Assembly: GCA_937872895.1 (NCBI GenBank)
Contig: CALMUP010000005.1
Span: forward strand, 64,001 to 128,000
Source of the DNA: an uncultured Verrucomicrobiota bacterium
GTDB lineage: Bacteria; Verrucomicrobiota; Kiritimatiellia; CAIVKH01
Reading direction: 5' to 3'
DNA length: 64,000 bases
Position numbers and translations under genes: made by a program. How positions within the stretch are numbered: the first letter of the stretch is position 1; every line of letters begins with the position of its first letter. The notes under the pieces were generated by a model. The model was not told the DNA's origin. It was given only the letters and a program-made list of their open reading frames with translations, and did not search any database. This document shows positions 26,352-64,000 of the stretch, in pieces.

Positions 26352-26464
26352 CCCGAACATTCAGGTCCTGTTCCGATTCCATTCACTCTGCCGGAACCGG
26401 CGCGGTGGCACTTGCTAACCTGTTCCACATCCGGTACCTATCGTCTGTGAACCAGAGCCAGGAC

Positions 26465-29014
26465 ATGCTGAATCCCTTGGCCTCGCCGGCCTACGCTGCC
26501 GACGCCTCCTACGATGAGATGTGGGATGCCAACGGCCAGGTCCGCGCCCATTGGCAGCCGTTCATGCGGGCCTTTGACTTGATCGGCGGTCCCGGCCTGG
26601 AGAAATTCCGCCAGGAAGCCCGCCGCGTCTTCCGCGAAAACGGCGTCAGTTACAACGTCTACGGCGACCCCCACGGCCACCAGCGCACCTGGGAACTCGA
26701 CCCGATCCCGCTGGTCATCAGCAGCGAGGACTGGGCCGACATCGAAGCCGGCCTGGTCCAGCGTGCCGAGCTGATGAACCTCGTCCTCGCCGACGTGTAC
26801 GGGCCGCGCAAACTGATCGCGAACCGCCTGCTGCCCGCCGAGTTGATCTTCGGCCATGAGGGGTTCCTGCGCGCCTGCGATCCCTTGCGACACCCCGAGG
26901 CCATGCGGCTGAACGATTTCGCGGTCGACCTCGCCCGCGGCCCCGACGGGCGCATGTGGGTGCTGCGCGACTACACCCAGGCCCCGGCCGGTATCGGCTA
27001 CGCCCTCGAGAACCGCACGGTGATGACCCGCATCCTCCCGCAGTTCTTCCAGGATGGCCACATCCACCGCCTGTCGTTCTTCTTCCGGGCCCTGCGCGCC
27101 GGCCTGGTCGCCCTCCCCAACCGCCGCAAGGACCAGCCGCGCATCGTCGTGCTCACCCCCGGCCCCTACAACGAGCTGTATTTCGAACACGCCTACCTCG
27201 CCTCGTACCTCGGCTATCCGCTGGTGCAGGGCGACGACCTGACCGTGCGCGACGGCCAGGTCTGGCTGAAGACCCTCGACGGCCTGCAGCCGGTGGACGT
27301 GATCATCCGCCGCATCAGCGACCGGTATTGCGACCCGCTCGAACTCGCCGAGGACTCCCTGCTCGGCGTGGCCGGCCTGCTCCAGGCCGCCCGCCTCGGC
27401 CAGGTCGTCATCGTCAATCCGCTCGGCACCGGCGTGCTCGAGAATCCCGGCCTGATCCCGTTCCTCCCCGGCATCGCCCGCTACTACCTCGGCAGCGACC
27501 TCAAGCTTCCCTCCGCCGCGACCTGGTGGTGCGGCCAGCCGAAGGAACGCGCCTACGTGCTCGAACACCTCGACCGGATGATCATCAAAAGCATCTACCG
27601 CACCTACCGGTCGCAATCGGCCTTCGGCGCGCTGCTCTCCAAGGACGAACGCGACGCGTTGCGCGACCGCATCCTCGCCCGCCCGCACCTGTTCGTCGGC
27701 CAGGAACAGGTCAGCTTCTCGACAACCCCGTGCCTGATCAAGGGCCGCATCGAACCGCGCCACGCCGCCATCCGCACCTTCGTCACCACCCACGAAGGCA
27801 AGTACCACGTCATGCGCGGCGGCCTGACCCGTGCGTCCTATGACCGCGGCATGACCGTACCGTCCCGGCACTTCAACAACATCAGCAAGGACACCTGGAT
27901 CATCGCCACCAAGCCGGAACGCCACATCAGCCTGTGGCTCCAGCCCGCGAACGACGAGATGGCCATCGAACGCAGCGGCATCCTGGCCAGCCGCGCGGCC
28001 GAGAACCTCTACTGGACCGGCCGCTACGCCGAGCGCGTCGAGGGCACCGCCCGCATCCTGCGCACGATGCTGATGCAGATGAACCGCGCCGAGGAGTCGG
28101 GCAACGAGACCCACCAGCAGCACATCCACCTGCTGCAGCAGGGGCTGACCGCGGTGACCGAGACCTATCCCGGCTTCCTCGGCGAGGAACCGCTCGACGA
28201 GGCCCAAGCCGAGGCCGAACTGCGCTCGGTCATGATCAACGAGCAACGCGTCGGCAGCATCGCCAACCTGCTCGGGCAGCTCATGGCCGCGGCCTACATG
28301 GTCCGCGACCGCTGGTCGCTCGACAACTGGCGCATCCTCGAGGCGATGAAGAACCACTGGCGCCATGTCCAGTCCAACACCCACGCGCCGATCCTCTCCG
28401 CCGGGTACGAGCTCGACGAACTGGTGACCTCGCTCGCCGCCTTCAGCGGCCTGAACATGGAGAGCATGACCCGCGAACCCGGCTGGCTCATGCTCGACGC
28501 CGGCCGCCGCATCGAGCGCGGCCTGTGGCTGATCCGCCTGATGAAGTCCCTGCTGATCCCCGCCTACGAGGAGAGCCTCGAGCACATGATTCTCGAGTCG
28601 TTCCTGTCGATGCACGAAAGCCTGATCGCCCACCGCCGTCGCTACCGTTCCTACCTCCACCTGCAAAGCACGCTGGACGTGCTGCTGGTCGACGAGAACA
28701 ACCCGCGCTCCCTCGCCTTCCAACTCGAACGCCTGCAGCGCAACCTCGCCCGCCTGCCCCGCCCGCGCCTCGACCGCAAGCTCAGCGCCGAGGAGAAACT
28801 GGCCCTCGAAGCGACCACCCAGCTCAAGCTGGCCGACGTGACCGCGCTCGCCCGCGCGACCCCCGGCGAGGGCTACAAGAAACTCGCCGAGCTGATCACC
28901 TTCATCGAGCAGCGGCTGATGGCGGTGTCCGACACGCTGAACCACGTGTACTTCAGCCACGCCCAGGGCGCGCGCCAACTGACGCCGACCCGCCGGAAAG
29001 GCGGCACGGTATGA
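26465..29014 (+). CDS. Circularly permuted ATP-grasp/alpha-E fusion protein
   Basis: An ~849-residue protein. Residues ~50-480 form the circularly permuted ATP-grasp type 2 domain (VYGDPHGHQRTWELDPIPL, VLRDYTQAPAGIGYALENR, LTPGPYNELYFEHAYLA, IRRISDRYCDPL, NPLGTGVLENPG). Residues ~500-840 are an alpha-E domain (SRAAENLYWTGRYAERVEGTAR). Such enzymes are predicted to form amide bonds on peptides or proteins. In the second locus (59699-62146) the same two domains are separate genes. Starts upstream (GTG 26405 or 26447) are possible; 26465 was chosen as the first ATG with a nearby purine-rich site. The stop overlaps the transglutaminase start as ATGA. Confidence 0.88.
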   Translation: MLNPLASPAYAADASYDEMWDANGQVRAHWQPFMRAFDLIGGPGLEKFRQEARRVFRENGVSYNVYGDPHGHQRTWELDPIPLVISSEDWADIEAGLVQRAELMNLVLADVYGPRKLIANRLLPAELIFGHEGFLRACDPLRHPEAMRLNDFAVDLARGPDGRMWVLRDYTQAPAGIGYALENRTVMTRILPQFFQDGHIHRLSFFFRALRAGLVALPNRRKDQPRIVVLTPGPYNELYFEHAYLASYLGYPLVQGDDLTVRDGQVWLKTLDGLQPVDVIIRRISDRYCDPLELAEDSLLGVAGLLQAARLGQVVIVNPLGTGVLENPGLIPFLPGIARYYLGSDLKLPSAATWWCGQPKERAYVLEHLDRMIIKSIYRTYRSQSAFGALLSKDERDALRDRILARPHLFVGQEQVSFSTTPCLIKGRIEPRHAAIRTFVTTHEGKYHVMRGGLTRASYDRGMTVPSRHFNNISKDTWIIATKPERHISLWLQPANDEMAIERSGILASRAAENLYWTGRYAERVEGTARILRTMLMQMNRAEESGNETHQQHIHLLQQGLTAVTETYPGFLGEEPLDEAQAEAELRSVMINEQRVGSIANLLGQLMAAAYMVRDRWSLDNWRILEAMKNHWRHVQSNTHAPILSAGYELDELVTSLAAFSGLNMESMTREPGWLMLDAGRRIERGLWLIRLMKSLLIPAYEESLEHMILESFLSMHESLIAHRRRYRSYLHLQSTLDVLLVDENNPRSLAFQLERLQRNLARLPRPRLDRKLSAEEKLALEATTQLKLADVTALARATPGEGYKKLAELITFIEQRLMAVSDTLNHVYFSHAQGARQLTPTRRKGGTV

Positions 29015-53151: not shown

Positions 53152-53901
53152 ATGAGCCTGCTGCGCGGCCACGTCACCCTGATTACCGGCGCAGGCAGCG
53201 GCATCGGCTTGGCCACCGCCCACCGGTTTCACCGCGAAGGCGCCACCGTGGTGCTGGTCGCCCGTTCGGAAGCGAGCCTCGACCGGGCCCGCACCCACCT
53301 GACCGGCCCGGCTCCCGTGCTGACCTTGTCGCTGGATGTGCGCAAGGCCGACGACATGGGAACGATGGTTAACCGGACGGTGGAGGCCTTCGGCCGCATC
53401 GATTCCTTTATCGCCAACGCCGGCACGATCGGCCACGTCTCGAAGGAGATGAAACTTCCCTACGCCCTCGCCCACCTGCCGCTGGAGGAATGGGACCTGA
53501 TCATCGACACGAACCTCAAGGGCCTGATCCATGGAAACCGCACTGTCCTGCGGCAGATGATGGCACAAGGTCGGGGCGAAGTGATCAATGTCGGATCGTA
53601 CCCCGCCTCCCTGCGCGGCAGTGCCCATGCCGCCGCCTACAGTGCCTCCAAGCACGCGGTGCGGGGCCTGACCCAGGCCGCGGCGGAAGAGATGCGCCCG
53701 TTCGGCATCCGGATGCAAACGCTGATGCCCGGACCGACCGAGACGCCGATGCTCTACGGCAACAACGCAGTCTCGCGCCACGGGGCCCTGACCCCGGACG
53801 ATGTCGCCCGGCAGATCCTGCACCTGATCACCCTCCCGCGCGACGCCACGCTCGGCGAATCGGTGGTGTATGCGGTCAAGCCGGCTGACCCGGCACCTTG
53901 A
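53152..53901 (+). CDS. Short-chain dehydrogenase/reductase (FabG-like)
   Basis: A 249-residue SDR: ITGAGSGIG (nucleotide binding), NAGTIGH (NNAG equivalent), INVGSYPAS with catalytic Ser, and YSASKHAVRGL with Tyr and Lys. Adjacent to an ACP, it may reduce a 3-ketoacyl-ACP; the SDR fold alone does not prove this. It overlaps the convergent sigma-54 activator gene by 26 bases. Confidence 0.85.
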   Translation: MSLLRGHVTLITGAGSGIGLATAHRFHREGATVVLVARSEASLDRARTHLTGPAPVLTLSLDVRKADDMGTMVNRTVEAFGRIDSFIANAGTIGHVSKEMKLPYALAHLPLEEWDLIIDTNLKGLIHGNRTVLRQMMAQGRGEVINVGSYPASLRGSAHAAAYSASKHAVRGLTQAAAEEMRPFGIRMQTLMPGPTETPMLYGNNAVSRHGALTPDDVARQILHLITLPRDATLGESVVYAVKPADPAP

Positions 53902-55417
53902 CCGCACCGCCCAACGCCTCGCCCCGCTCCACGTATTTCTTCACCGTGCGCCGATCGAGCCCGGTTCGCCGCGCCACGTCCTCGTAGGATCCCATCCGGT
54001 CCCACAAAGTCCGGCAATACGAGGCGGTCAGGGAGTCGACCGTCAAACTCCCGCTTTCCAATTGCTCCAGCCAACGCGGACGATCCGCCGTGGAGACGAC
54101 CTCCGCCACCGGCTCATACCGGCCAGTGAGCAGGACGCGGCGAACCGCCTGTTCGAGCTCCCGCACATTGCCCGGCCACCGGTAGCCCCTACCCGGATGC
54201 GCGGCGAGGGTCGCGGTTACCCGCTCCTGCAAGGCCGACGCGGAATCGGTTCCCAGATGCCGCTCAAGGATCACCGCGACCAGCCGCGGCAGTTCGTCCG
54301 GATCCTCGGCGAATCGATGACGCAACGGCGGAACCTCGATCACATCCGAGCAAAGCCGGTAGTAGAAGTCGTCGCGGAACTGCCCGGTGCGCCGCAGCAC
54401 CGGCAAGGCCCGGTTGGTCGCGGCGATAACCCGTCCGGCGAACCGGCGCTCGACCGAACCGCCCACCGGTACAAACACCCGCTCCTGCAGGACCCGCAGC
54501 AGTTTCAACTGCACCGGGGCCGGCGCGTCGCCAATCTCGTCGAGGAAGATGGTCCCGTGCGGCCGGCACCGGCCCAGCCACCCCTCGCGGTCCGCCACCG
54601 CCCCGGTGAATGCGCCCTTCACATGGCCAAACAACTCGGCCTCGATCAAGGTTTCCGGAAACTGGGCCAGATTCACCGCGATGAACGATCCGGCGAAATT
54701 CTCCCGGAATCGCCGCGTCGCCGGATCGTACGGGATGTACCCCGACAACCCCAACGCCCGCGCCACCGCACCCTTCCCGCTGCCGGTTTCGCCGAGCAGC
54801 AAGGTCGAGAAATCCTCCATCCGCGTCACCATCGCCCGCAGATACAACCGCAGGTCGTGCGTGAACACATTGTTCCAGCAAGCCACCCGCAAGGCCTGCA
54901 TCGCCGGGCTGCTACCGACCAGCTCGCGCCGGATGAAAAAATAGGCCCGCCGCAACTGGTAAAACATGCCGACATCGCGCAAGGCCACCGCCGGCGCCAA
55001 ACCGGCTTCCGCCAACGCCGCCAACGCCTCCACCACAAAGCCCGCCGCCAACGACTCGCCCCGCTGCTGCTCCTGCCGAAGAATCAACCGGTCAAAGTCC
55101 GGCGCCCACCGGTGAAACACATCAAACAACACCGCCGATTCCACCAACCGGCCATCCTCCACCCCATAGCCGTCCACCCGCCCCTGACCTCGCACCCGCA
55201 ACCGCTCCAACACCGCACGCACCCGGGCCAAGGCATCAGCCAACCCTCTACCACCCCGCCCGCCCATCACCCGGTCCAACCGGATGCGCGACTCCGAGAA
55301 TGGATTTACAAACGCCGCCTCATCCACCAAGGCAAACAAGGCGCGATCCTCATCCGACAATACGTGCGGCTTCATACATAAAATGTATATGGCAAGTACA
55401 CTCCTTGCAATCTTCAT
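53876..55417 (-). CDS. Sigma-54-dependent transcriptional activator
   Basis: A 513-residue enhancer-binding protein. Residues ~1-190 form an unrecognised sensory domain without a phosphorylatable receiver. The AAA+ domain has Walker A GETGSGKG, the sigma-54-contact loop GHVKGAFTGAVADR (GAFTGA), Walker B TIFLDEIGD and the sensor R of VREL. A Fis-like HTH ends the protein (YEDVARRTGLDRRTVKKYV). Start: GGAG sits 7 bases before ATG at 55417. A start at 55375 is also possible. It is divergent from the VIT operon, which has a sigma-54 promoter (55485-55500). Confidence 0.88.
   Translation of the reverse strand: MKIARSVLAIYILCMKPHVLSDEDRALFALVDEAAFVNPFSESRIRLDRVMGGRGGRGLADALARVRAVLERLRVRGQGRVDGYGVEDGRLVESAVLFDVFHRWAPDFDRLILRQEQQRGESLAAGFVVEALAALAEAGLAPAVALRDVGMFYQLRRAYFFIRRELVGSSPAMQALRVACWNNVFTHDLRLYLRAMVTRMEDFSTLLLGETGSGKGAVARALGLSGYIPYDPATRRFRENFAGSFIAVNLAQFPETLIEAELFGHVKGAFTGAVADREGWLGRCRPHGTIFLDEIGDAPAPVQLKLLRVLQERVFVPVGGSVERRFAGRVIAATNRALPVLRRTGQFRDDFYYRLCSDVIEVPPLRHRFAEDPDELPRLVAVILERHLGTDSASALQERVTATLAAHPGRGYRWPGNVRELEQAVRRVLLTGRYEPVAEVVSTADRPRWLEQLESGSLTVDSLTASYCRTLWDRMGSYEDVARRTGLDRRTVKKYVERGEALGGAVKVPGQPA
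55374..55388. promoter_or_regulatory. Palindromic candidate enhancer-binding site
   Basis: ATACATAAAATGTAT is a perfect 6-3-6 palindrome about 100 bases upstream of the sigma-54 promoter of the VIT operon, a normal distance for an activator site. It lies in the 5' part of the activator gene. Related palindromes occur upstream of the ATP-grasp operon (59521-59532 and 59559-59573). Confidence 0.5.
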
Positions 55418-55484
55418 CATTCAGCTCCAAAACAAGAATTCTCGCATTTAATTGCACCACATACACATATGCAAATACGTCCGA

Positions 55485-55500
55485 TTGGCACGACAGATGC
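55485..55500 (+). promoter_or_regulatory. Sigma-54 (-24/-12) promoter of VIT operon
   Basis: TTGGCACGACAGATGC matches the consensus TTGGCACR-N4-TTGC: GG at 55487-55488 and GC at 55499-55500 are exactly 12 bases apart. The small membrane-protein start is 45 bases downstream, so a short 5' leader is expected. The divergent sigma-54 activator is adjacent. Confidence 0.8.
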
Positions 55501-55545
55501 CTATAGCTGTTTCATCCGCCACGATGGCGGTCAAGAAAGGATGTC

Positions 55546-55719
55546 ATGAAGACGAAAAGAAAGCTGGGTTGGTGGATGGCGGTGTTGTCGGCGGTGGTGC
55601 TCGGAGCCTTGGCGCTCGGCACGTTGAAAAACCGCGAGTCGTGGGTGAAGGCGATGGACGACGCCTACCTGTACGAGGCGGCGGGCCACCTGCAGAAGCA
55701 ACAGGCGGTGCGGTGGTGA
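55546..55719 (+). CDS. Small single-helix membrane protein (57 aa)
   Basis: A 57-residue peptide beginning MKTKRKLGWWMAVLSAVVLG: a basic N-terminus, one hydrophobic helix (residues ~9-26), then a short acidic/basic amphipathic tail (ESWVKAMDDAYLYEAAGH). It has a good Shine-Dalgarno (AAAGGA) and is the first gene after the sigma-54 promoter, 26 bases before the VIT gene. No family is recognised; it may be a chaperone or membrane partner of the VIT protein or sortase. Confidence 0.65.
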   Translation: MKTKRKLGWWMAVLSAVVLGALALGTLKNRESWVKAMDDAYLYEAAGHLQKQQAVRW

Positions 55720-55745
55720 AACGGACGAAACAACAGGAGCACATC

Positions 55746-57845
55746 ATGAATAGAACGAAGAAACGTTGGACGGGCTGGCTGGGTGGCGCGGTGTTGGCGG
55801 CTGGACTGGCTGTGGTACCGGCACGGGGCGCGGGCCTGCTGGTGGCGGATGGCGGTTTCGGCGGCGCGCTGGAGATCGTGTCGCACGAAGTCGAGGTGAC
55901 GATCAACAACGGCGTCGCAGTGACCAAGGTCGCCCAGGTCTTCCGCAACCTCGAGGACCGGCAGGTCGAGGCCCTCTACACCTTCCCGGTGCCGCGCGGC
56001 GCGAGCGTCGCGAACTTCAGCATGTGGATCAACGGCACGGAAATGGTCGGCGAAGTGCTGGAGAAGCAGCGCGCCCGCGAGATCTACAACAGCTACAAGC
56101 AGGTGCGGCGCGATCCGGGCCTGCTGGAGCAGGTGGACTACCGCACCTTCGAGATGCGGATCTTCCCGATCGCCGCCAAAGCCGAGCAACGGGTCGAGAT
56201 CAGTTACTACCAGGAGCTCGACAGCGACGACGACCAACTGCGCTACGTGTACCCGCTGGCCACCACGACGCGGAAGGACATCCGCGCCGACGTGACCGGC
56301 CCATTCGCGATGCAGGTGCACGTGCGTTCACTGGTGCCGATCACCGCAATGACCAGCCCGAGCCATCCGAACGGCTTCGTGTTCGCCCGGCACAGCGACG
56401 ACTACCACCAGGCCAGCCTGGAAAACCGCGGCGGCCGCCTCGACGAGGATGTCGTGCTGACCTGTACCGTGTCGCGCCCGAAGACCGGACTCGACCTGGT
56501 CACCTCGCGCGAGAAGGGTGACGACGGCTATTTCATGATGACCCTGACCGCCGGCGAGGACCTCGCCGCGCTGGATGAATCGATGGACTATGTCTTCGTT
56601 CTTGATGTCTCCGGCAGCATGGGCAACGACGGCAAACTGGCCCTCTCCCGCGAATCAATCATGGCCTTTGTCGACACGCTCGAGGCGGGCGACCGTTTTG
56701 ATGTCATGACCTTCAACATCCAGCCAACCACCTTGTTCGGCGCGCTGCGCGACGCCTCCGGCAACGCGAACACCGAAGCCCGCCAGTTCCTCGACCGGCA
56801 GTCCGCCCGCGGCGGGACCGTGCTGAATCCCGCCGTGCAGACCGCCTACCGCTACGCCGATCCCGACCGCATGCTCAACGTGGTCATCATGAGCGACGGC
56901 ATGACCGAACAAGCTGAACGCGCCGCATTGCTGAACCTGATCCGCCAGCGCCCGGCCAACTGCCGCGTGTTCTGCATCGGCGTCGGCAATGACGTCAACC
57001 GTCCGCTGCTCGAGCAACTCGCCGACGACAGCGGCGGCCTGGCCGCCTTCCTGTCACGCGGCGACAACCACGAGCTGGCGGCCAAGGCCTTTCGCCGCAA
57101 ACTCATGCGCCCGGCTGCGCAGAACCTGACCCTCGCCATCAACGGCATCGACGCCTACGACATCGAACCCGCCACCCTACCCAACCTCTACCACGGCGTG
57201 CCGCTGCGCATCTACGGGCGCTACCGCGGCGAAGGCGATGCCTCGGTGACCCTGAAGGGCGACGTGCGCGGCAAGGCGTTCGTGTCGAGCGATACGATGA
57301 CCTTCCCCGGCCGCGATGCCGACAATCCCGAAATCGAACGCATGTGGGCGCTGAAGCGCGTGGACCAGTTGCTGAAGAAGGCCGACCGCGATGACCGCCG
57401 CGCCGACGTCGTTCCGGAAATCATCCGCCTCGGCGAGACCTATTCCATCGTGACCGAGTACACCTCGTTCCTCGTGCTCGAGAACGACGCCGAATACCAG
57501 CGCTGGCAGATCGAGCGCCGCAACGACCACCGCTCCGGCCGCGACCGCGCCGCGCAACGCCTGCGCGAGGAACGCCTCGCCGAGATCCGCAACCGCGCCG
57601 TGAGCAACCTCGGCCCCGAAGCGGTCCGCACCGACCAGCCCGTGCAGCTCGCCTCGGCCACGCCGGCGTCGGCCACCCCGGCCGCGACCCCGGGCATCCA
57701 ACCCGCGCGCACCGCGCCGACCCAGTCGCGCGACCAGGGACGCAGCATCGACCTCAACATCGGCACCGGCCCGGTCGGTCCACTGTTCCTGCTGGTCAGC
57801 GCCTGGATGGCGCGACGGAAGCAACGCGGTAACGCGACCGCCTGA
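55746..57845 (+). CDS. VIT-VWA surface protein with C-terminal sorting-like tail
   Basis: A 699-residue exported protein: signal peptide (GGAVLAAGLAVVPARG), VIT domain (residues ~40-170, NFSMWINGTEMVGEV, RTFEMRIFPI), VWA domain with MIDAS DVSGSMG at D287, then an Arg/Ala/Pro-rich linker. The tail GTGPVGPLFLLVSAWMARRKQR (given in parts: GTGPVGP, hydrophobic span, RRKQR) has the tripartite form of a sorting signal. A rhombosortase gene lies 55 bases downstream, as in known GlyGly-CTERM systems, but no GG pair is present. The start at 55746 was chosen for the leader and AGGAG site. Confidence 0.85.
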   Translation: MNRTKKRWTGWLGGAVLAAGLAVVPARGAGLLVADGGFGGALEIVSHEVEVTINNGVAVTKVAQVFRNLEDRQVEALYTFPVPRGASVANFSMWINGTEMVGEVLEKQRAREIYNSYKQVRRDPGLLEQVDYRTFEMRIFPIAAKAEQRVEISYYQELDSDDDQLRYVYPLATTTRKDIRADVTGPFAMQVHVRSLVPITAMTSPSHPNGFVFARHSDDYHQASLENRGGRLDEDVVLTCTVSRPKTGLDLVTSREKGDDGYFMMTLTAGEDLAALDESMDYVFVLDVSGSMGNDGKLALSRESIMAFVDTLEAGDRFDVMTFNIQPTTLFGALRDASGNANTEARQFLDRQSARGGTVLNPAVQTAYRYADPDRMLNVVIMSDGMTEQAERAALLNLIRQRPANCRVFCIGVGNDVNRPLLEQLADDSGGLAAFLSRGDNHELAAKAFRRKLMRPAAQNLTLAINGIDAYDIEPATLPNLYHGVPLRIYGRYRGEGDASVTLKGDVRGKAFVSSDTMTFPGRDADNPEIERMWALKRVDQLLKKADRDDRRADVVPEIIRLGETYSIVTEYTSFLVLENDAEYQRWQIERRNDHRSGRDRAAQRLREERLAEIRNRAVSNLGPEAVRTDQPVQLASATPASATPAATPGIQPARTAPTQSRDQGRSIDLNIGTGPVGPLFLLVSAWMARRKQRGNATA

Positions 57846-57864
57846 ACCTCCCAACGACAACAAC

Positions 57865-57890
57865 GGGGCGGATCCCCACGGATCCGCCCC
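57865..57890 (+). terminator. Hairpin terminator after the VIT gene
   Basis: GGGGCGGATCC and GGATCCGCCCC form an 11-bp stem with a CCAC loop, followed by a weak pyrimidine run. It lies between the VIT stop and the rhombosortase start, which begins only 11 bases later, so it may attenuate rather than stop transcription. Confidence 0.7.
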
Positions 57891-57900
57891 TTCCCATACC

Positions 57901-58488
57901 ATGAAAACCCTTACGCCGTGGCTGCTCGCCCTCCTCGCCGCCGCCAACCTCCCGCTGCTCACCGGCACCCCGGCCACCGCCCTGGTCTTCGACGCCAAGG
58001 CGATTGCGTGCGGTGAGGTATGGCGGATCCTCACCCACCCCTTCGTCCACGTCAGCCTTTACCATGCCGTGCTCGATGCCGGCGCGTTCCTGTTGTTGTG
58101 GGCATTGCGCCCGGAGCCACATCGCCTCGCGGCGGATGCCGCAGTGATGGCGACGCTGATGGCGGGCAGCCTGGCCGGTGCCATCGCGGCCGGCCTTCCC
58201 CCCGGTGGATTCTGCGGACTTTCCGGCGTGGCCCACGGGTTGATGGCATGGCAGGGTGTGCGGTGGATCCGCGACCGCGACCCCGTGAGCCGGCGCATCG
58301 GGTGCGCCATCGTGCTGGTTGTTCTCGGCAAGTCCATCATCGAGACGATCACCGGAACGGTCATCCTCTCCGGAATGCATGCGGGCGTGGTCGGAACCCC
58401 GATCGCCGCCTGCCACCTCGGCGGCGCACTGGCCGGGGCACTACTGGGTGCCACCAAACGGCTCAGATCCACTCGCGTTTGCGGATGA
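57901..58488 (+). CDS. rrtA: Rhombosortase (rhomboid-family intramembrane protease)
   Basis: A 195-residue rhomboid with about six helices. It carries the dyad S108 (GFCGLSGVAHG) and H172 (AACHLGGALAG), plus the rhomboid His region HPFVHVSLYHAVLD. Its short size and position after a protein with a C-terminal hydrophobic/Arg tail fit rhombosortase, which cleaves GlyGly-CTERM tails. No Shine-Dalgarno is visible; the terminator hairpin occupies that space. The 3' end overlaps the convergent CorA gene by 26 bases. Confidence 0.85.
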   Translation: MKTLTPWLLALLAAANLPLLTGTPATALVFDAKAIACGEVWRILTHPFVHVSLYHAVLDAGAFLLLWALRPEPHRLAADAAVMATLMAGSLAGAIAAGLPPGGFCGLSGVAHGLMAWQGVRWIRDRDPVSRRIGCAIVLVVLGKSIIETITGTVILSGMHAGVVGTPIAACHLGGALAGALLGATKRLRSTRVCG

Positions 58489-59422
58489 ACCAGACAAAGG
58501 CCACGATAAATACCACAACCGTTCCCCAGAATCCGGCATACCCGTAACGCCAGGCCAACTCGGGGATGTATTCAAAATTCATACCGTACACACCGCACAG
58601 GAAACTCAGCGGCAGGAAGATCATGCTGAAGATGGTCAGCCGGTTCACGATCTTGTTCGTGCGGTGACTGACCATGCCCATATAGAGGTTCAGGGTTTCC
58701 GCGAGCACGCTGCGTTCGTTCTCCAACTCGTCGCCGAGGCGCTCCATCCGGTCCGAATGGACCCCGAGCATCGGCTGGGCCGTCTCGGCCACAAAGGCCG
58801 ACTTGCGCGTGGCCAGCTCGTTGAACAGGTCGCGTGAGACCAGGACCATGCGGCGGAAGGCGAGGATGTCCGCCGTCAGCCGCGACACCGACAGGAAGAT
58901 GTCGTCGGTCACCTTGCCGAACAAGGTCAACTGGATCCGCTCCACCTCCGCCGCAAACTGCTGGAAAGTGCGCCGGTAGGAATCGAGCAACCGCGACGCC
59001 AGTTCGTACAGGAGAAATCCGGAACTCTTCGCGAACTTGTGGAAATCCTCGCGGTAGATCCGCTGGATCTGCTCCAGCACCGGCGAGCGCCCCGGCGTCA
59101 TCACCGCCAGCACCCGCTCCATCAGCAGATATTCGGTCGTACCCGACCGCAGCGCGCCAGCCTCATACCAGGCCTCGGTCACCGAAAAATGGATGGCACA
59201 GTCGTGCAACTCGAACCGGCCCTCCACCTGCGGTCCCAGCAGCGCACCGACCAATGCCTCCGGCACCTCCAACCGGGCCAACAACGCGGCACCCGCCTCC
59301 TGGTCCTGGGGATCAAATACCACCCAGTAAAACCACCCCGGCTCCGGGCCTTCTGCCGTCAAACGGGAAGCCTCCACCACCCGCTCCACCTTGCGCTCAA
59401 AATCGAATGCCACAATCTGCAT
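58463..59422 (-). CDS. CorA-family divalent cation channel
   Basis: A 319-residue protein: a soluble N-terminal CorA domain (~1-240) and two C-terminal helices, the first ending with the selectivity motif YGMN (in VYGMNFEYIP). Rich in acidic helices as usual for CorA stalks. It probably conducts Mg2+ or another divalent ion into the cell. The start at 59422 was chosen because AAGG lies upstream; an upstream TTG is less likely. Confidence 0.9.
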   Translation of the reverse strand: MQIVAFDFERKVERVVEASRLTAEGPEPGWFYWVVFDPQDQEAGAALLARLEVPEALVGALLGPQVEGRFELHDCAIHFSVTEAWYEAGALRSGTTEYLLMERVLAVMTPGRSPVLEQIQRIYREDFHKFAKSSGFLLYELASRLLDSYRRTFQQFAAEVERIQLTLFGKVTDDIFLSVSRLTADILAFRRMVLVSRDLFNELATRKSAFVAETAQPMLGVHSDRMERLGDELENERSVLAETLNLYMGMVSHRTNKIVNRLTIFSMIFLPLSFLCGVYGMNFEYIPELAWRYGYAGFWGTVVVFIVAFVWFIRKREWI

Positions 59423-59520
59423 GCCGCCGACCTTAACCCATCCTGCCAACCGATGGCAAAAGATTCAGTACGACCCCCGAGCCCTCCACCCAACAGCTTG
59501 TCGAAAACCGTATTGAGATT

Positions 59521-59573
59521 TACATAAATGTAGAATACTTTTCAACACAAGACAGGATTGTATAAAATGTACA
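59521..59573. promoter_or_regulatory. Paired palindromic candidate enhancer sites
   Basis: TACATAAATGTA (59521-59532) is a 5-2-5 palindrome, and TGTATAAAATGTACA (59559-59573) shares ATAAAATGTA with the site at 55374-55388. They lie about 120 and 80 bases upstream of the -24 element, typical of sigma-54 activator sites. The whole 59423-59698 gap is AT-rich and otherwise gene-free. Confidence 0.45.
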
Positions 59574-59653
59574 TTTTTGCATAAACACCGTCATTGATTT
59601 AACTCGTTCTCATTCAATAGCATACATCGCGGAAAGCGCAAAAACGACAATTA

Positions 59654-59669
59654 TGGCACACGAAATGCT
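59654..59669 (+). promoter_or_regulatory. Sigma-54 (-24/-12) promoter of ATP-grasp operon
   Basis: TGGCACACGAAATGCT has GG (59655-59656) and GC (59667-59668) 12 bases apart, with TGGCAC matching the -24 consensus exactly and ATGCT close to TTGCW. Transcription would start near 59680, 20 bases before the ATP-grasp start. Confidence 0.75.
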
Positions 59670-59698: not shown

Positions 59699-61177
59699 AT
59701 GAGATTTGAAGACTATCAGCTCGACGGCTTTTTTGACGAAATGTTTCAGCCGGACGGCTCCCCGCGCCCCGGCTCGGCGTTGCTCTACCAGCGGTTGCGC
59801 TCGCTGTCGGATGGTGACCTGACCCGCTACCAGCAATCGGCCGAGCGCGCGCTGCTGAACCTCGGCATCACCTTCCAGGTGTATTCCGACAAGGAAGGAA
59901 CGGAGAAGATTTTCCCGTTCGACATCATTCCGCGCATCATCGAGGCGGCGGAGTGGCGGGTGATCGAGTCGGGGCTGCGCCAGCGCATCTACGCCTTGAA
60001 CCTGTTCCTTCAGGACATTTACTCCGACGCGAAGATCATCAAGGACGGCATCATCCCGGCCGACGTGATCAAGTCGGCGAAGACCTACCGCGCGAATTGC
60101 GAGGGGCTGAAGCCGCCGCAGGGGATCTGGTGCCATGTGACCGGGACCGACCTGGTGCGCGACCGCGACGGCCAGATGTATGTACTGGAGGACAACCTGC
60201 GCTGCCCGTCCGGCGTTTCGTACGTGCTGGAAAACCGCCGCGTGATGAAGAACACCTTTCCCAGCGTGTTCGCCGACCTGCATGTCCGATCGGTTTCCGA
60301 CTATCCCGGCAAGCTGCTGGACATGCTCCAGAACCTCGCCCCGGCGAACGCGGTGAATCCGGAAGTGGTGGTATTGACCCCCGGCATCTACAATTCGGCC
60401 TACTTTGAACACTCGTTCCTCGCCCAGCAGATGGGTGTCGAGCTGGTCGAGGGCCGCGACCTGGTCGTGCACAACGGCTATGTGCACATGCGAACGACCC
60501 GCGGCCTGCAGAAGATCGATGTGATCTACCGGCGCATCGACGACGACTTCATCGATCCGCAGGCCTTCCGTGCCGATTCGGTGCTCGGAGTGCCCGGCCT
60601 GATGGAGGTTTACCGCGCCGGGCGAGTCGCCTTGGCCAACGCGCCCGGCACCGGTGTGGCCGATGACAAGGTCGTCTATGCCTACGTACCGAAGATGATC
60701 AAATACTACCTCGGCGAGGAGGCAATCCTCCCGAACGTCCCGACCTACCTGTGCTGGATCGACGCTGACCGCCAGCACGTGCTGGCCAACCTCGACAAGC
60801 TGGTGGTGAAGGCGGCCAATGAGTCGGGCGGCTACGGCATGCTGGTCGGCCCGCACGCGAGCGAGGCCGAACGCGAAAAATTCGCCGGGCTGATCAAGGC
60901 GAATCCGCGCAACTACATCGCCCAGCCCACCCTCGGCCTGTCGCGGGTGCCGGTGCTGGTGGATGACACGATCGCCGGCCGCCACGTCGACCTGCGCCCC
61001 TACATCCTCTACGGAAAAGATATTTACGTGTTGCCGGGCGGGCTGACCCGCGTCGCCCTGAAAAAAGGCTCGCTGGTCGTGAACTCCTCGCAGGGCGGCG
61101 GCAGCAAGGACACCTGGGTCCTGTCGAACAACCCCGCCCGCTCGACCCAGCACGGCAACGCCAACGGGAGCACCTGA
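59699..61177 (+). CDS. Circularly permuted ATP-grasp protein
   Basis: A 492-residue stand-alone circularly permuted ATP-grasp enzyme: [100 protein letters not shown] and an Arg/Ser-rich end ([13 protein letters not shown]). It corresponds to the first half of the fusion at 26465-29014. It is predicted to ligate an amino group to a carboxylate by acyl-phosphate chemistry. It heads an operon with alpha-E (gap 3 bases) and transglutaminase-like (gap 7 bases) genes. Confidence 0.9.
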
Positions 61178-61180
61178 GCC

Positions 61181-62146
61181 ATGATGCTGAGCCGCGTCGC
61201 CGATTCGATCTACTGGATGAGCCGCTACATCGAGCGGGCCGAGAACATCGCCCGCTACATCAACGTCAACCTGAGCCTGATGCTCGACCAGCAGCCCGAC
61301 GGCCAGAACCAGTGGGACGCCCTGATCCAGATCACCGGCGACCACGCCGCCTTCAAGGCCAAACACGGTGCGGCCACACTGGCCAGTGTCACCAACTTCC
61401 TCGCCTTCGACCGCGACCATCCGAACTCGATCTTCTCCTGCGTCCGGGCCGCCCGCGAAAACGCCCGCACCGTGCGCGAGGCCATCTCATCGGAGATGTG
61501 GGAATACCTCAACCGCCTGTACCTGAAGGTGCGCGACCGCGCCGCCGCCAAGGACCTGTTCCAGATCGAGGAAGGCAGCCAGTTCTTCACCGAGATCCGC
61601 CTCGCCGGCAACCTGTTCGACGGCATCACCGACAACACGATGACCCACAACGAGGGCTGGCACTTCTGCCGCCTCGGCCGCATGCTCGAACGCGCCGACA
61701 AGACCTCGCGCCTGCTCGACGTGAAATACTTCCTGCTGCTGCCCTCGCTGTCCGACATCGGAACCCCCTACGACGAACTGCAATGGTCCGCCCTGCTCCG
61801 CTCGTCGAGCGCCTACGAGATGTACCGCAAACGCCACGGCCGCATCACCCCGGACAAGGTCGTGGCCTTCCTCGTCCTCGACCACGAATTCCCGCGCGCC
61901 ATGCTCTACTGCATCGCCCGCGCCCAGGAATCGCTCCACAACATCACCGGCACCCCGCTGGGCACCTTCGCCAATACCGCCGAACAGCAACTCGGCAGCC
62001 TGCGCTCCCAACTCGCCTTCTCCAGCGCGAAGGACATCATCCGCAGCGGCCTGCACGAATTCATCGACGAGTTCCAGACCACCCTGAACGAGGTCGATGC
62101 CTCCATCTTCCAGAATTTCTTTGAAATCCGGACCGTACAGGACTAG
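61181..62146 (+). CDS. Alpha-E domain protein
   Basis: A 321-residue all-helical alpha-E (DUF403) protein starting MMLSRVADSIYWMSRYIERAE, with ARENARTVREAISSEMWEYLN and HFCRLGRMLERADKTSRLLD. The Arg/Glu-rich repeated ERA motifs mark the family. It is a likely partner of the ATP-grasp enzyme, perhaps presenting the substrate; no enzymatic activity is known. It is coupled to both flanking genes by short gaps. Confidence 0.93.
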   Translation: MMLSRVADSIYWMSRYIERAENIARYINVNLSLMLDQQPDGQNQWDALIQITGDHAAFKAKHGAATLASVTNFLAFDRDHPNSIFSCVRAARENARTVREAISSEMWEYLNRLYLKVRDRAAAKDLFQIEEGSQFFTEIRLAGNLFDGITDNTMTHNEGWHFCRLGRMLERADKTSRLLDVKYFLLLPSLSDIGTPYDELQWSALLRSSSAYEMYRKRHGRITPDKVVAFLVLDHEFPRAMLYCIARAQESLHNITGTPLGTFANTAEQQLGSLRSQLAFSSAKDIIRSGLHEFIDEFQTTLNEVDASIFQNFFEIRTVQD

Positions 62147-62153
62147 CTACGCC

Positions 62154-62999
62154 ATGCACGTGTCCATCCGCCACCAGACCCAGTACAGCTACAGCCGCCC
62201 GGTCGCCCTCGACCCGCATTCCCTGCGCCTGCGCCCCCGGCAGGACGGCAGCCAGTTGATCCGCCGCTACACACTGGAAATCACCCCGCGCCCGGCCGGC
62301 CTGACCGAATTCACCGACCTCGAAGGCAACGCCGCCTCCCAGGTCTGGTTCAGCGACCTGACCGACACCCTCTCCATCCTCGTCATGGCCGAGGTGGAAA
62401 CCCTGCGCGAAAACCCGTTCGACTTCGTCATCGCCGAACCCGGCGTCATGACCCTCCCCGTCCGCTATCCCGACCTGACCCGCCACAGCCTCCGCCCCTA
62501 CTGCATCCCGACCCAGGGCGACGGCCCCGTGACCTGGTACGCCGACGAAATCGCCCGCGAAACCGGCTGCGACACCCTTCGCTTCCTGACCGCCCTGACC
62601 GAGGACCTCTACGAACGCATCGCCCACGTCGTCCGCCCCGCCGGCGAACCCCAGACCCCCGAAGCCACCCTGAAACTCGGGGCCGGCGCCAGCCGCGACC
62701 TCGCCGTCCTGTTCATCGAAGCCTGCCGCACCCAGGGCATCGCCGCCCGCTTCGCCAGCGGCTACTGGAACGGCCACGCCCCCGACGGCAACCAGTACCT
62801 CCACGCCTGGGCCGAAGTGTACTTCCCCCAGAGCGGCTGGCGCGGCTACGACCCCTCGATCGGCCTCGCCGTCGCCGACCATCACGTTCCCATCGCCTCC
62901 GGCCTCTACCCCGGCAGCGCCGCCAGCATCACCGGAGCCTTCTGGGGCTCCGACGTCCGCTCCACCATGTCCGCCACGGTGGACGTACGCGGCCAGTAA
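62154..62999 (+). CDS. Transglutaminase-like protein with Ser in place of catalytic Cys
   Basis: A 281-residue transglutaminase-like protein: N-terminal beta domain (HVSIRHQTQYSYSRPVALDPH, LRPRQDGSQLIRRYTL) and core where the usual GxCRDxA reads GAGASRDLAVL, with S180 (codon AGC) at the Cys position. H217 (YLHAWAEV) and D233 (GYDPSIG) are retained. Either a non-catalytic binding protein or a Ser-dependent variant. It is seven bases after the alpha-E gene. The other two transglutaminases in the window keep Cys. Confidence 0.88.
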   Translation: MHVSIRHQTQYSYSRPVALDPHSLRLRPRQDGSQLIRRYTLEITPRPAGLTEFTDLEGNAASQVWFSDLTDTLSILVMAEVETLRENPFDFVIAEPGVMTLPVRYPDLTRHSLRPYCIPTQGDGPVTWYADEIARETGCDTLRFLTALTEDLYERIAHVVRPAGEPQTPEATLKLGAGASRDLAVLFIEACRTQGIAARFASGYWNGHAPDGNQYLHAWAEVYFPQSGWRGYDPSIGLAVADHHVPIASGLYPGSAASITGAFWGSDVRSTMSATVDVRGQ

Positions 63000-63102: not shown

Positions 63103-64000
63103 ATGAAACCGCTCACCCTGTTTTTGGCCCAGATCAACCCGACCGTGGGGGCGTTGGAGGCGAATGCCGACCGGATCCTTGCCGCCGCCCGTCAGGCTGC
63201 CGACGCCGGCGCGCACCTCGTGGCCTTCCCCGAACTGGCCCTGAGCGGGTATCCACCCGAGGACCTCGTCCTGAAACGCCACTTCATCGAGGACGTGGCC
63301 GCCCAACTGGACCGGATCGCCACCGCGCTCCCGCCCGCCCTGGTGGCGCTGGTGGGCGCACCGGTGGCCGCGAACGGCCAGGTCTACAACGCCGCCGTGG
63401 CGTTGCGCGATGGCGCGGTGATCGCGACCTACCACAAGATGGCCCTGCCCAATTACGGCGTGTTCGACGAGAAACGCGTGTTTGCCGAAGGCGACGCCCC
63501 CTGCGTGCTCGAGGTGAACGGCGCCCGCATCGGCCTGCACGTCTGCGAGGACTCGTGGTCGGTCACGTTCCCCGCCGTGCAGGCCCTCACCGGCCAGCGC
63601 CTCGACCTGCTCATCAATCTCAGCGCCTCGCCGTTCCACCGCGGCAAACACGCGGTGCGCACCGCGCTGATCGGCGAAACCGCCCGCTTCCTCGGCGTCC
63701 CGGTGGCCTACGTGAACCTGGTCGGCGGACAGGACGAGCTGGTGTTCGACGGCGGCAGCTTCGTCCTCGACGCGCGCGGCGAGGTCGTCGCCCAGGCCCG
63801 CACCTTTGCCGAGGATGTGCTGCGCGTGGATTGTCCATGGACTGGACACGCGCCCGCGCCCGTTGTCCAATCCCTGGACACCGCCGAGGTCTATGCCGCG
63901 CTGCGCCTCGGCCTCGCCGACTACGTGAACAAGAACGGTTTCGCCAAGGCGCTGATCGCGATCAGCGGCGGCATCGACTCCGCCCTCGTCGCCGCCCTCG
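63103..64000 (+). CDS. nadE: Glutamine-dependent NAD+ synthetase (3' partial)
   Basis: The first ~299 codons of a two-domain NAD+ synthetase. The nitrilase-type glutaminase domain shows Glu in FPELALSGYPPEDL, Lys in TYHKMALPNYGVFDE and the nucleophilic Cys in GLHVCEDSW; the synthetase domain begins with the ATP-pyrophosphatase loop ISGGIDSALVAAL at the window edge. It makes NAD+ from deamido-NAD+. A TTGTCCA-N6-TGGACA repeat pair (63831-63880) lies in the interdomain linker. Confidence 0.95.
   Translation, partial: MKPLTLFLAQINPTVGALEANADRILAAARQAADAGAHLVAFPELALSGYPPEDLVLKRHFIEDVAAQLDRIATALPPALVALVGAPVAANGQVYNAAVALRDGAVIATYHKMALPNYGVFDEKRVFAEGDAPCVLEVNGARIGLHVCEDSWSVTFPAVQALTGQRLDLLINLSASPFHRGKHAVRTALIGETARFLGVPVAYVNLVGGQDELVFDGGSFVLDARGEVVAQARTFAEDVLRVDCPWTGHAPAPVVQSLDTAEVYAALRLGLADYVNKNGFAKALIAISGGIDSALVAAL
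63831..63880. repeat. TTGTCCA-N4-TGGACA repeat pair inside nadE
   Basis: TTGTCCATGGACTGGACA (63831-63848) and TTGTCCAATCCCTGGACA (63863-63880) are similar short imperfect palindromes, 14 bases apart, in-frame within nadE. The second resembles the inverted repeat after the SDR gene (AATCCTTGGACA, 7399-7410). It is read as a linker between the two enzyme domains. Confidence 0.55.

Follow-up and report, generated by a model that had tools for sequence, protein, structure and literature searches.

Described bacterial systems have counterparts in the DNA analyzed here. VIT/VWA proteins ending in GlyGly-CTERM were shown by Haft and Varghese 2011 (PMC3237569); no literature joining sigma-54 with rhombosortase was found. 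In Burkholderia cenocepacia, the DUF404/407-DUF403-transglutaminase cluster requires both sigma-54 and NtrC (PMC5491218). P. putida PP_2685-2688 is nitrogen-induced, which was ascribed to NtrB/NtrC (PMC7801951), and a nitrogen-limitation response is reported for the Anbu operon (PMC5666114). The window is a 64-kb stretch of an uncultured Verrucomicrobiota bacterium (C5:64001-128000, from an assembly of 3.87 Mb in 51 contigs). It contains a VIT protein/rhombosortase operon and an operon of ATP-grasp, Alpha-E, and transglutaminase-like proteins, each behind a -24/-12 promoter of the sigma-54 type. The first-pass annotation had placed both in one joint regulon, with the sigma-54 activator beside the first promoter switching the two on together. 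The evidence argues for two separate sigma-54 circuits, a reading we hold to be highly probable: the activator would serve VIT/rhombosortase, and the ATP-grasp operon would be nitrogen-controlled, with a NifA-like protein as the likely binder.

The exact consensus TGGCACN6TGC has only two matches in the 64 kb, both on the plus strand. These are TGGCACGACAGATGC at 55486-55500, before the VIT operon, and TGGCACACGAAATGC at 59654-59668, before the ATP-grasp operon. With one mismatch allowed, there are no more matches than chance would give, so the weight rests on the exact consensus and on conservation. A comparison of orthologous loci found both elements at the same place in relatives, the second in most orthologues. 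The two well-formed promoters reported at first therefore hold up.

Upstream of the VIT promoter is a palindrome with a five-base spacer. The predicted activator operator 1, ATACATAAAATGTAT (55374-55388), is an exact palindrome with a TACA-N5-TGTA core at 55375-55387, lies 111 bp from the -24 element, and overlaps the activator start codon (55373-55375). A probable operator 2, TACACTCCTTGCA (55397-55409, one mismatch), follows exactly 22 bp further on, with 89 bp left to the -24 element. Genome-wide scans were run as sequence patterns with reversed-pattern controls. The 3.87 Mb hold no second exact copy of ATACATAAAATGTAT, and a mismatch-tolerant search for the palindrome gave 4 matches versus 18 in the control. 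The palindrome alone is thus uninformative, and operator plus promoter is informative: the N5 dyad with promoter has 8 matches in 66 genomes and 0 with the reversed control.

Orthologous activator loci share this layout. A TACA-N5-TGTA dyad precedes the divergent gene, often over the activator start codon, and is followed by a -24/-12 element; a second dyad is often seen 22 bp further on. When dyads with at most one mismatch were compared with shuffled sequence, the N5 form was present in 72 of 122 activator loci (shuffled mean 11, maximum 18) and the N4 form in 10 of 122 (chance 11.4). Distances from the N5 dyad to the -24 element are mostly 88-89, 99-101, 108-114, and 121-125 bp. These clusters are about one helical turn apart, which fits an enhancer that needs to face the polymerase.

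The link to VIT/rhombosortase extends beyond neighboring genes. In genome G007, VIT and rhombosortase are on contig C152 and the activator is beside an LplT-Aas-type gene on C315. The C152 locus has a -24/-12 element and a pair of N5 dyads offset by 22 bp, and is a predicted independent target of the activator in trans. The 8 close VIT orthologues all occur in genomes that encode the activator (hypergeometric 4e-6). More distant VIT proteins (31-37% identity), handled as a separate group, mostly lack rhombosortase, operator, and promoter. Because of the conserved operator, the phased spacing, the G007 case, and the distribution of close VIT orthologues, it is very probable that VIT/rhombosortase is controlled by the neighboring activator, acting at the palindrome at 55374.

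The ATP-grasp promoter is preceded by dyads with a four-base spacer. Predicted nitrogen-type operator 1, TACATAAATGTA (59521-59532), is an exact, conserved TACA-N4-TGTA, 133 bp from the -24 element. Predicted operator 2, GACAGGATTGTA (59551-59562), has one mismatch and a conserved position; it follows operator 1 at 30 bp, with 103 bp left to the -24 element. The first-pass annotation had listed three related palindromes. Those at 55374 and 59521 are exact and conserved, but the third, TGTATAAAATGTACA (59559-59573), overlaps the GACAGGATTGTA site and is not conserved in its own right. Their relation lies in the TACA/TGTA half-sites; the spacer is the feature that separates both sets. At the same threshold, an N4 dyad is found at the ATP-grasp promoters of 21 of 24 relatives (shuffled 1.7, maximum 5) and an N5 dyad at 0 of 24. 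The N4 dyads at these promoters are often paired, about 30 bp apart. They are kept at 8 of 9 ATP-grasp promoters of genomes without the activator; G002, which belongs to the same genus, is among the 8.

The N4 dyad with promoter has 64 matches in 36 genomes, versus 6 with the reversed pattern. Of the 50 examined, 38 lie before amt (20), ATP-grasp/transglutaminase genes (7), genes for urea-type ABC binding proteins (5), or, in the remaining cases, GlnII, a second glutamine-synthetase type, urtA, and nirB. A scan of related genomes for palindrome plus promoter, suggested as a check of the joint regulon, divides its targets: VIT goes with N5 sites, and N4 sites precede nitrogen genes. The amtB gene of this genome is preceded by a pair of N4 dyads with an offset of 30 bp, which lie 145 and 115 bp from the -24 element. 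They were read from the sequence: the pattern scan missed them, because the perfect dyad falls slightly beyond the gap range covered and the other carries one mismatch. The ATP-grasp operon shares this layout (133 and 103 bp). Judging from the one-base spacer difference, the pair spacing, the persistence of the sites without the activator, and the company they keep, the ATP-grasp/Alpha-E/transglutaminase operon is a predicted member of the nitrogen regulon.

The glutamine-dependent NAD synthetase gene (nadE; 63103-64000, plus strand) continues past the window end. It is followed by a NifA-like GAF activator (C5:128752-130326), amtB, and a P-II gene. The NifA-like protein narrowly passes the NifA model TIGR01817 (534.7 versus 528.85 bits), and its gene sits in a cluster with N4 sites at both ends. 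In 20 relatives, no sigma-54 activator was found within about 10 kb of the ATP-grasp operon, so the NifA-like neighbor is special to this genome.

Taken together, a mechanism can be proposed. The activator would bind paired TACA-N5-TGTA dyads 22 bp apart, on a helix face that allows looping to the -24/-12 element at 55486. Once bound, it would activate the genes for the VIT surface protein, the rhombosortase dedicated to it, and a small membrane protein. Self-repression is also probable, given that the first dyad lies over the start codon of the activator. Nitrogen limitation would turn on the ATP-grasp operon through TACA-N4-TGTA dyads paired at a spacing of about 30 bp, most likely bound by the NifA-like protein between nadE and amtB.

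Several observations weigh against two separate circuits. In about 40% of activator loci, no N5 dyad is found even with one mismatch allowed. Most N5 sites were scored next to the activator gene, a position in which autoregulation could be enough to keep them conserved, and the VIT locus is the only N5 target detected in this genome, whose own LplT-Aas copy has neither operator nor promoter. The half-sites are identical, and as far as sequence alone goes one protein could bind both spacers. Of 36 genomes that have the ATP-grasp operon, 19 also carry the activator, which is more than expected (odds ratio 5.3) and may reflect the shared ancestry of a few genera. This co-occurrence, the common half-sites, and the position of the genes within 4 kb would suit a single activator that binds every palindrome and switches both operons on together. 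We regard that account as very improbable, since spacer and pair spacing (22 versus about 30 bp) differ consistently, N5 is never found at an ATP-grasp promoter, and N4 sites mark nitrogen genes and persist without the activator in G002 and seven other genomes. Of the joint regulon first proposed, the VIT/rhombosortase arm is well supported and the ATP-grasp arm finds no support.

A purely autoregulatory N5 operator, with something else regulating the divergent gene, would explain why the dyad overlaps the activator start codon in many orthologues. It is improbable given the helically phased distance to the -24/-12 element and the N5 dyads with promoter at unlinked genes. One is the G007 VIT gene; the other, in G010, encodes an alpha/beta-hydrolase-like lipoprotein (a name given on the basis of its sequence and not of a model match). 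A receiver-type, NtrC-like activator elsewhere in the genome could control the ATP-grasp operon in response to nitrogen, as NtrC does for the proteobacterial counterparts (PMC5491218, PMC7801951), and three receiver-type activators are encoded on C8, C13, and C38. This is possible but the less likely choice, because the C8 and C38 proteins score below the NtrC equivalog cut-off, the NifA-like protein passes the NifA cut-off, and its gene is found between nadE and amtB, within the cluster flanked by N4 sites. Two circuits, with the NifA-like protein on the nitrogen side, remain the preferred reading.

The activator is a protein of 499 amino acids encoded on the minus strand (53876-55375), described from its translation, an alignment of 14 orthologues, and a structure model. 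It has the AAA+ domain (PF00158, 145.9 bits) and the GAFTGA motif (GHVKGAFTGA) of sigma-54 enhancer-binding proteins, which bears out the initial identification of a GAFTGA activator next to the first promoter. A C-terminal helix-turn-helix with the conserved VARRTGLDRRTVKKYV goes together with operators at 111 and 89 bp from the -24 element, within the 80-150 bp expected of such proteins. The N-terminal domain of about 170 amino acids is all-helical and matches no Pfam family, and the protein reaches no cut-off of the NCBIfam equivalog models. The structure model is reliable for the N-terminal domain only and poor for the AAA+ part; its best PDB matches are known sigma-54 activators and add nothing new on the N-terminal domain. 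The PEP-CTERM regulator PrsR (TIGR02915) is a sigma-54 activator linked with a C-terminal sorting system. The activator scores 169.7 against the PrsR cut-off of 502.6 and is not a member. Of 288 genomes of the class, 63 encode orthologues with about 40-57% identity. In a GTDB scan, others were found in Desulfobacterota, Beta- and Gammaproteobacteria, Geobacter, Rokubacteria, and elsewhere. The activator apparently represents a widespread sigma-54 activator family with no prior description evident.

The divergent targets of the family vary between lineages. In the class sample, VIT and rhombosortase are the divergent genes at 8 loci, and a further 2 have them nearby; in the wider GTDB scan they are divergent in about 12 of 80 activator loci, most from other phyla. 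The commonest neighbor in the class is a protein of about 1,110-1,190 amino acids with a major facilitator superfamily, an acyltransferase, and an AMP-ligase part (LplT-Aas type), often with an alpha/beta hydrolase. The LplT-Aas-type protein of locus L039 is above the cut-off of NF006386 (acyl-[ACP]-phospholipid O-acyltransferase). Both gene sets occur together in L039, L055, L056, L353, and L380, where the L353 match is weak. Further loci carry a fatty acid desaturase or radical SAM proteins, and 10 carry a PfaA-like ketoacyl synthase protein that is below the PfaA cut-off. This protein has an NMO/FabK-like domain and is divergent to the activator (L342:2501-6635 and nine other loci, mostly Desulfobacterota, e.g., Desulfoluna). 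One genome has a BadF/DUF2229 CoA-activase-type protein of 1,436 amino acids in that position (L060:5793-10103). In some Pontiellaceae-like loci, a FeeM-like domain fused to an aminotransferase is encoded downstream of the LplT-Aas/hydrolase genes (L063:14548-16353); in such loci, a B12 radical SAM protein and DUF2157/GDYXXLXY membrane proteins are encoded close by.

The activator most likely reports membrane lipid state, because the targets of its orthologues include the LplT-Aas lysophospholipid acyltransferase with alpha/beta hydrolase, the protein resembling polyunsaturated fatty acid (PUFA) synthase, and fatty acid desaturase. Since the LplT-Aas copy of this genome has no operator or promoter, it is other genomes that supply the evidence for the lipid link. 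LplT-Aas genes unlinked from the activator also lack a dyad in the other activator genomes tested, one of which, G089, has a -24/-12 element there without a dyad. A broader proposal is a multi-phylum membrane-lipid response with rhombosortase as one output. The VIT protein would be cleaved and linked through its C-terminus to an ethanolamine lipid, which the LplT-Aas protein, alpha/beta hydrolases, desaturase, and PUFA-synthase-like protein would remodel or recycle. This is speculative and rather doubtful.

The VIT operon begins with a probable single-transmembrane protein of 57 amino acids (MKTKRKLGWWMAVLSAVVLGALALG...; 55546-55719, plus strand). An open reading frame of similar size beginning MKTKR is at the same place in L039. 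The VIT and VWA surface protein (55746-57845, plus strand; 699 amino acids; PF08487, PF13768) scores 239.5 bits against the equivalog cut-off of 551.65 bits of TIGR03788, the marine proteobacterial sortase target, and falls outside that family. The rhombosortase (57901-58488, plus strand) belongs to TIGR03902 (93.9 bits, cut-off 84). The VIT protein ends in GTGPVGPLF, a hydrophobic part, and RRK. The pattern G-S/T-GPVGPLF-hydrophobic-basic is near-invariant, with a very short hydrophobic part. The G-S/T-GPVG tail is seen in the window (57740-57845) and in L256-L260, L065, L096, L097, L353, L356, L361, L380, and L399. Four tails tested gave no score above cut-off with the CTERM models, and the protein is not a GlyGly-CTERM target by those models. 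Being tripartite, the tail may work like a GlyGly-CTERM signal, and by its sequence it looks like a dedicated sorting signal for the adjoining rhombosortase. It lies outside the CTERM models tested and merits its own model.

A CorA-type transporter (58463-59422, minus strand; PF01544) lies between the operons. The second operon is made up of a circularly permuted ATP-grasp protein (59699-61177; PF14403), an Alpha-E protein (61181-62146; PF04168), and a transglutaminase-like protein (62154-62999; PF08379, PF01841), all on the plus strand and, by Pfam, in the order that defines such operons. A second, fused CP_ATPgrasp-AlphaE protein of 869 amino acids is encoded at 26405-29014 (plus strand) and is about 34% identical to the 59699 protein over the ATP-grasp part. 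No good -24/-12 element was found before this gene or its relatives.

On this reading, a plausible but wrong merger of two regulons is averted. An enigmatic peptide-ligation operon is assigned to the response to nitrogen in a lineage distant from Proteobacteria, and the alternative targets of the activator, a surface protein with rhombosortase or membrane-lipid enzymes, hint at a role for the poorly understood VIT/rhombosortase system.

The activator shares with the NtrC/NifA/PspF class the AAA+ domain with GAFTGA, the C-terminal helix-turn-helix, paired upstream dyads, and a -24/-12 promoter, and differs in its all-helical N-terminal domain outside Pfam and its place below every NCBIfam equivalog cut-off. 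As in rhombosortase/GlyGly-CTERM pairs (PMC3237569), the rhombosortase gene immediately follows that of a VIT/VWA protein whose C-terminal tail is tripartite. Here, however, the tail is the fixed G-S/T-GPVGPLF with its very short hydrophobic part, and sigma-54 regulation is not described there. The gene order and families of the second operon are those of the ATP-grasp/Alpha-E/transglutaminase (Anbu) operon (PMC5666114, PMC6376114), but NAD synthetase, the NifA-like activator, amtB, and the P-II gene take the place of an Anbu gene directly behind. The clusters of B. cenocepacia and P. putida (PMC5491218, PMC7801951) likewise have nitrogen-controlled ATP-grasp/Alpha-E/transglutaminase genes. 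The B. cenocepacia cluster depends on NtrC and the P. putida induction is ascribed to NtrB/NtrC, whereas the operator here is TACA-N4-TGTA and the candidate activator is NifA-like.

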